Both the position numbers and the translations under genes were made by a program. Positions 35,947 through 46,752 of a DNA stretch of 64,000 bases are shown piece after piece; the first letter of the stretch is position 1; the number at the start of each line of letters is the position of its first letter. A model generated the notes under the pieces. It searched no databases and was not told the origin of the DNA. It saw only the letters and a list, made by a program, of their open reading frames with translations. The DNA comes from Cheilinus undulatus. Taxonomy: Eukaryota > Chordata > Actinopteri > Labriformes > Labridae. The DNA lies in NCBI RefSeq assembly GCF_018320785.1, contig NC_054884.1, positions 18,539,667-18,603,666 of the forward strand. The letters are read 5' to 3'.

Positions 35947-38900
35947 ATGTATGAGAAGTTAACCATGCTGAACCTGCAGAGTGGCTCAAACTGGAGCGGG
36001 CCTAACAACTGGTACCATGACCCCACTGGTGTTCAGACGCAACACAGCACAGGTGAGAAGAGGGGGGGTCTAAACGTATGCCCAAACTCATTGATCATCA
36101 GTTAAAAGTACTTTTCTTGTAATATTTTTCTTCTGACACTCCCACGTCTCTTTTGTCACCTTCCCTGCCAGTGTCTGACGGCTGTCTGCTGGACACAGAG
36201 GGCAGCATGGGGGGAGAGGTGGGCGGAGGAGGAGGGGTAGCAGGTCGAGGAGGAGTAGGAGGAGGAGTGCCGGTGGACAGGGACGATGGCGAAGAGTCGC
36301 AACTGAGGCTGCAGCTGAAGAGGAAGCTGCAGAGGAACAGGACGAGCTTCACGCAGGAGCAGATCGAGGCTCTGGAGAAAGGTCAGGCCACTTGGCGCAC
36401 GCACATCAAGCTCTCTCTCTAGCTCTCTTCCTCTCTGAGCCAATCACTGCCCTCCAGGAGTGTGTCATGACGCAGCTTTGTCCTGCTGCTTTTCCCCCCT
36501 ACCAACACCTTTGTTATTGGGTCTTAGTCTTTACTCTTTTTTGTTTTTTTTCTTTTTTTGTAGCTTTTTGGTCAAACGTGTGGGGAAAAACAAGAAATTA
36601 CAGACATTAAACTAAAAAATCTGTTTCTTTAACAGTTTTTTTATGCCTGGTTTTTGATGCACTAAACACCAGATATATCATTATTTTTAAACAATCACTT
36701 CCGGATGCAATTCCCCCACAAATATTCCCAATGTGCTCCAAAGCGCCTCCAGCAGCGTTCTCGATAATGCATCATTACAGAGGCTATGTTGTGCACTGAG
36801 CTCTGGCCCTCGTAGCTTCATATCGGCTGAGAGGAATCACACGGGCACCCTTGACTGGATATGGCTGCAGCAGGGCCCCTTGAGCTAAATCAGGACGCAA
36901 TGTCCACTGTGCAGCCGAGTGGAAGTGTATCACTGTGGTCACTCTGTGCAAAATGACATTAATGAGGTACGCTGACCTCGGTGCACGGCCGAAGCACAAT
37001 AACAATCATGTGTTGACATAGACGCCAATTATAACCCGGCCAATTAGAGCAATTTGTTGGACAGACTTAATTTATGAAGCCATCGTTTTTGTCATTATGC
37101 CATATTTATTAATTAATCATGTTTGTATTGCGTAAATGAAGTCATCTATACAACGCCGAACAAGCACAGCCAACTATCCTGCTGCCATTTCAGATGTTAT
37201 TTCTGATGTTTTAAATTGATTTTTGTTTTTGTTTCTGCGTTGACATTTAATTGACACTGATGTTAAGCATTGTGAGCGCAGACGAAGATGTCTTCATTAA
37301 CAGACACGAAACTTCACAGTTCATTAGGGTGACTTAGACTGTCGCCATATTCTTGTTACCATTGTCAACAACAATAATGTCAACTATAGATGAAGTGACA
37401 CAATGAGAAATGATACTTTTATACAGAATCTGTCATTGATACAAAGTCCTCAGTGTGTTTTTCCCCAAAAAATGGTGATTTTCAGGAGAAAAAAAGTGAG
37501 TACAAGCCAAAGCCACAGCAGGAACACAACATAATGTTGCATAGAGTCTTGCTGTTTAATTATATTCATCATCATCATTATTAATTTATTTAAATCCTCA
37601 GAAGGCACATTGAAGGACATTTTCAGTGGTGCTAAGGTGTACAACATGGCAATTAAAGAGAAAACATTTCTCAAGAATAAGGTGGTAATTACTTTGTAAT
37701 AAAGTGGCATTTATATCAAGTGATAACCAGAAATATGTCAGTATTAAGGAAGTATTAACATAATAATAATGTACTGATTATCTTGTAACTCCTCATGATA
37801 TTGTAGCAACTCTCTGTCAATTACCCTGACCTTCTAACCCCTGATCCTAACCCTGAAAATTTCTTGAAAATAATTCAGGAAGTACTCACTTTAATTTAGA
37901 GGGCAAAAAAAAAGATTATCAAGCAACTTATTCTTTACTTGTTAAAGACCACCTGACAACAAAACTGCCACAATATTATAAGGGTTAGGGTAAGGGGGTA
38001 GGACTAACAAAAAAACACCTGATTACCAGAGAACTGCCACAATACTACAACAGTATGGGTGGGGGAAAAATACCACCTAATTACCAGAGATTTGACACAG
38101 TATTACCAGTGTTAGGGTTAGGACAAAATACCACCTATTTACCAGAGATTTGCCACACTATTACCAGTTCTTATTCTCAGGGCAAAATACCACCTATTTA
38201 CCAGAGATTTGCCACACTATTACCAGTGTTAGGCTTAGGAAAAAATACCACCTAATTACCAGAGATTTGCCACAATATAACCAGTGTTAGGCTTAGGGCA
38301 AAATACCACCTAATTACCAGAGATTTGCCACAATATTACCAGTGTTAGGGTTAAGGAAAAATACCACCTATTTAACAGAGATTTGCCACAATATTACCAG
38401 TGTTAGGGTTAGGGCAAAATACCACCTAATTACCAGAGAACTGCCACAATATTACCAGTGTTAGGGTTAGGGCAAAATACCACCTAATTACCAGAGAACT
38501 GCCACAATATTACCAGTGTTAGGGTTAAGGCAAAATACCACCTTATTAGTAGAGATTTGCCACAATATTACCAGTGTTAGGATTAAGGCAAAATACCACC
38601 TATTTACCAGAGATTTGCCACAATATTACCACTGTTAGGGTTAAGGCAAAATATCACCTTATTAGTAGAGATTTGCCACAATATTACCACTGTTAGGGTT
38701 AAGGCAAAATACCACCTATTTAACAGAGATTTGCCACAATATTACCAGTGTTAGGGTTAGGGCAAAAATACCACCTAATTACTAGAGATTTTCCACAATA
38801 TTACCAGTGTTAGGCTTAGGGCAAAATACCGTCTTATTACCAGAGATCTGCCACAATATTACCAGTGTTAGGCTTTGGGCAAAATACCGTCTTATTACCA

Positions 38901-46752: not shown

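Follow-up and report, generated by a model that had tools for sequence, protein, structure and literature searches.

The gene at 35947-46752 on the forward strand is almost certainly pax10/Pax6.2b of a spiny-rayed (acanthopterygian-type) teleost, encoding a transcription factor of 287 residues that has a paired-type homeodomain but lacks the paired domain. This identification follows from the gene model, the PAX6-type homeodomain, the lack of a detectable paired box in the window (the whole 64-kb stretch of DNA that was analysed) and a set of neighbours fitting those described for the locus, and very probably it is the published gene at its published locus. The pax10 identity proposed in the initial annotation is thus upheld. 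The wrasse gene is of an already known kind, as pax10 has been in print from 2013 on (PMC3554528), and what is new here is limited to details, namely a non-coding exon predicted at the 5' end, an upstream open reading frame (ORF) that overlaps the predicted start codon and a (TC)70 repeat at the exon-5 acceptor.

We identified seven coding exons, all on the forward strand, that splice in phase into 864 nt encoding 287 residues and a stop, free of internal stop codons and frameshifts, and all six introns have GT-AG boundaries, which bears out the complete seven-exon gene reported earlier. Third codon positions have a GC fraction of 0.67, and four stretches sampled outside coding sequence have one of 0.34-0.40. 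The gene is no chance pattern of ORFs. For each exon, identities were counted over the residues aligned with the human PAX6 sequence. Coding exon 1 (35947-36052; 14/31 identical) we take to correspond to the 3' portion of exon 7 of PAX6. Exon 2 (36172-36381; 37/55) carries a Gly-rich linker and the homeodomain as far as EALEK, with the 5' part of the homeobox at 36327-36381 (the position of homeodomain residue 1 was counted manually) and the rest in exons 3 and 4. The 83-nt exon 3 (40916-40998) codes for the middle of the homeodomain and is the best conserved, with 27 of 28 residues identical, while exon 4 (41085-41241; 31/49) contains the third helix and the start of the C-terminal region. 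Exon 5 (44173-44246; 10/25) codes for a piece of that region, which is rich in Ser and Pro, exon 6 (46396-46528; 23/42) for another, and exon 7 (46652-46752; 22/28) for the protein end GQYWARLQ and the stop codon. A literature search found no PAX6 exon sizes.

The homeodomain is nearly that of PAX6. In a phmmer search of PDB sequences, the PAX6 homeodomain 2cue was the top match (135.9 bits), 48 bits ahead of the next chain, aristaless (87.8 bits), and Pfam places the Homeodomain family (PF00046) at residues 90-145 with an E value of 3.2e-23. The alignment with 2cue starts at residue 89, coded from 36330, and within the homeodomain the sole difference is Asn for Ala at residue 123, which by our count is homeodomain position 36. 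Ser50 and Asn51 are both present (WFSNRR), as had been claimed. The exon breaks inside the homeodomain (slash) are EALEK/EF and ARIQ/VWF, which presumably match those of human PAX6. Over its whole length, the protein is identical to human PAX6 at 164 of 258 aligned residues and retains C-terminal motifs of that sequence, including SYSCMLP. Its start, MYEKL, aligns to the MYDKL of human PAX6, which we take to lie a few residues past the end of the paired domain; this agrees with the earlier proposal that the protein begins where Pax6 leaves that domain. Compared with canonical Pax6 (Pax6.1), the wrasse gene shares the near-identical homeodomain, the C-terminal motifs and, presumably, the homeodomain exon breaks, but it lacks the paired domain and has a longer Gly-rich linker, a diverged Ser/Pro-rich region and different neighbours.

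A Pfam scan of the 287 residues found no paired domain. Three solved-structure paired domains (PAX6, PAX5 and Drosophila paired) were used as tblastn queries, and the search, which had been suggested for the region upstream of the gene, was run on the whole window, where no paired-box match fell below an E value of 0.22. As a positive control, a homeobox tblastn recovered each of the three homeobox exons, two at 5e-23 and one at 7e-07. Sensitivity was measured by planting three paired-box pieces (44, 72 and 22 residues long), rough equivalents of the PAX6 exons, on the forward strand between 17 and 34 kb. All three were recovered in 20/20 trials at 90% identity; recovery of the 44-, 72- and 22-residue pieces was then 20/20, 20/20 and 17/20 at 70% identity, 20/20, 20/20 and 10/20 at 60%, 19/20, 20/20 and 4/20 at 50%, and 15/20, 19/20 and 1/20 at 40%. 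From these rates, absence from the 64-kb window is firm for the two larger pieces and less so for the smallest, of 22 residues. The description of the gene as homeodomain-only and paired-less therefore stands, with the combination of a Pax6-type homeodomain and no paired domain that characterizes pax10/Pax6.2. A paired-box relic directly before the start codon was also considered and dropped, as the 76 nt at 35871-35946 scored 14 against the start of PAX6 exon 7 in three frames and 1276 of 2000 shuffles scored as high.

The same search bears on the reading of the gene as a full-length pax6 paralogue whose paired-box exons were overlooked, be it a duplicate of Pax6.1 or Pax6.3 itself. The near-PAX6 homeodomain would suit such a gene and a diverged copy of the 22-residue piece is easily missed, but tblastn found no paired box in the 64 kb, where the two larger pieces would still have been visible at half identity. 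The space for missing exons is bounded upstream by a protease gene on the opposite strand, whose 5' exons seemingly lie near 23 kb, and the C-terminal region is strongly altered for a full-length Pax6, as the overall identity given above reflects. Moreover, Pax6.1 and Pax6.3 are reported to have other neighbours, such as Elp4 and Dnajc24 (PMC3554528). We consider an overlooked full-length paralogue highly improbable.

The gene order in the window is a VKOR-like gene (-), Mapk7 (+), a trypsin-type serine protease (-), the pax gene (+) and a probable matrix metalloproteinase (MMP) (+). The reverse strand at 1390-1614 carries a partial gene for vitamin K epoxide reductase (VKOR; PF07884, E 2.5e-09). 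The forward-strand kinase ORF at 7532-9124 (Pfam Pkinase) is Mapk7 (ERK5), as its 11 best PDB sequences are all MAPK7 (423.6-434.8 bits) and the next scores 311.2. The protease exons extend on the reverse strand from 13074 to about 23159, at the position published for Prss22, with Pfam Trypsin matches at 13074-13352 and 15666-16025, prostasin as the best PDB match of the latter and a SAAHC motif at 22850; the 22 residues of an exon read by eye near 23.1 kb alone match no Pfam family. The metalloproteinase label is the weakest among the neighbours. Two candidate 5' exons on the forward strand, within 59394-62687, point to this probable gene by domain and motif: 59394-59618 has a prodomain-type match to PG_binding_1 (E 1.4e-07), a family that we take MMP prodomains to match, and 62568-62687 contains a cysteine-switch-like PRCSLPD motif at 62577, presumably of the MMP25 type, plus an RRRRRKR run. 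Against the PDB, the best match of the first candidate is a chain called E8 and none is a metalloproteinase, while the second matches only ribosomal protein L4 (E 0.26) and no Pfam family; a literature search for the Mmp25 switch motif found none. The catalytic HExGHxxGxxH motif is absent from the window, which may end before the exon that encodes it. The names Prss22 and Mmp25 are used here by domain, motif and position.

Ravi et al. (2013, PMC3554528) describe acanthopterygian Pax6.2 as adjoining Mapk7, Prss22 and Mmp25 and sitting between the latter two, and report that zebrafish retained the reciprocal Pax6.2 copy, beside Rcn3 and Nosip. The order found here, in which a protease gene and a probable MMP gene flank the pax gene, with Mapk7 alongside, fits that locus, so the wrasse gene is assigned to the acanthopterygian-type copy, Pax6.2b. 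The Pax6.2b genes of medaka, stickleback and fugu in that study are likewise paired-less, with a Pax6-type homeodomain and C-terminal region. The same architecture is found in Pax6-delta-PD, transcribed from the P-alpha promoter of Pax6; this isoform, however, arises by alternative promoter use from a gene that codes for the paired domain as well, whereas wrasse pax10 is a separate gene.

The linker preceding the homeodomain contains a Gly-rich stretch at 36204-36281 (residues 47-72), with 13 Gly among 26 residues and codons rich in GGA and GGG. From DGC to LRLQLKRK, the protein has 42 residues and human PAX6 has 27. The stretch had been annotated as replacing the Pax6 linker, a view that we discard since the linker is still alignable with that of human PAX6, with DGC...EG..GGE and the acidic segment preceding LRLQLKRK in register. 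The alignment score, 29.5, is owed in part to the DGC and the acidic end that both sequences have, and none of 2000 shuffles (mean 0.65) reached it. The Gly-rich stretch is therefore best read as an insertion of about 15 residues of GGA/GGG-rich codons within the linker.

At the 5' end, inspection of the sequence suggests a probable leader consisting of a non-coding exon ending at 35124 and an acceptor into the exon at 35871. The predicted non-coding exon spans 35020-35124 (the start at 35020 is nominal) and is followed by a GTAAGTT donor, and the predicted 5' UTR of the first coding exon covers 35871-35946, after a CCCCCTCCAG acceptor. An out-of-frame upstream ORF at 35924-35962 starts 23 nt before the predicted start codon, overlaps it and ends inside the coding region, and the second in-frame ATG, Met7, lies two bases past its stop in an AACC context. 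The leader and the linker insert may be the possible novelties of this locus. Further downstream, the perfect (TC)70 repeat at 44030-44169 runs right up to the exon-5 acceptor; individuals may differ in the number of repeats, and this may influence splicing. One could propose that three changes specific to this lineage, namely the insert in the linker, the overlapping upstream ORF followed by Met7 and the (TC)70 repeat, reduce pax10 output or make it variable, with dosage tuned by start-site choice and repeat length, but we regard this as improbable.

A decaying pax10 pseudogene, with whose relaxed constraint the Gly-rich insert, the repeat at one acceptor and a minisatellite in an intron would be compatible, is scarcely credible for 287 open codons with canonical splice pairs at every intron and a homeodomain with a single substitution.

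As a functional pax10/Pax6.2b, judging from its published orthologues, the gene would be activated by an upstream enhancer in the neural retina during development, and its product would bind, through the Ser50 homeodomain, sites presumably of the TAAT type and act through its Pax6-like C-terminal region. It would thus work like Pax6-delta-PD, the product of an internal promoter of Pax6, but from a gene of its own. Medaka Pax6.2 is reported to be expressed in the neural retina from stage 22 (PMC11541176), and zebrafish Pax6.2 is described as retinal, with an upstream retinal enhancer, and its knock-down in morphants as reducing eye size (PMC3554528). In the latter report, the authors liken elephant shark Pax6.2 to the paired-less Pax6 isoform, and eye expression has also been published for Pax6-delta-PD. 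The protein may, in addition, tune full-length Pax6, either by competition for homeodomain sites or by contact between its homeodomain and the paired domain of Pax6. In Drosophila, homeodomain-only Eyeless is reported to antagonise eye induction that depends on the paired domain, and the homeodomain of Eyeless to contact the RED subdomain directly (PMC4286722); by analogy, this type of antagonism may extend to pax10. The medaka study, whose methods include a Pax6.2 reporter assay, states that redundancy with Pax6.2 is unlikely as the cause of the mild Pax6.1 phenotype (PMC11541176).

Concerning its origin, the paired domain is reported to have been lost after the split of the cyclostomes and before that of cartilaginous and bony fishes, provided that lamprey Pax6-beta is the Pax6.2 orthologue (PMC6925180). 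A loss this early means that a modern fish locus inherits it and documents none of it. The idea that this locus shows how a DNA-binding domain was dropped has thus to be given up, since no relic was found and the published loss is far earlier. The claimed loss of pax10 in mammals does agree with the literature, where it is stated for mammals (PMC4901127) and the gene is described as absent from birds and mammals (PMC3554528, PMC3759438). The value of pax10 is that of a clean case in which a duplicated master regulator persisted after losing one of its two DNA-binding domains, to which the window contributes one further complete locus and a few testable details at the 5' end and in the linker.

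Several mobile elements and repeats were found in the window. Two adjoining ORFs at 17506-18387 on the reverse strand, inside the span of the trypsin-type protease gene, match DDE_Tnp_1_7, which we take to be a piggyBac-type family. Remains of Tc1-type transposases lie at 28861-29199 (-; HTH_SB and HTH_Tnp_Tc3_2) and at 63678-63920 (+; DDE_3), all below the Pfam cut-offs, and the ORFs beside them (28487-28867 and 63508-63822) match no Pfam family. Scanned against Rfam, the 64 kb gave no hit at the gathering score. An element resembling a MITE, with inverted ends, occupies 41317-41975, within the intron that separates coding exons 4 and 5, and the one separating coding exons 2 and 3 holds a 58-bp minisatellite of 22 copies (38008-39284) that matches internal parts of this element over 35-51 bp at 79.6-94.3%. 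A diverged copy of the element at 37643-38104 (63.9% over 471 bp) runs into the minisatellite, so the latter may have grown inside one copy.
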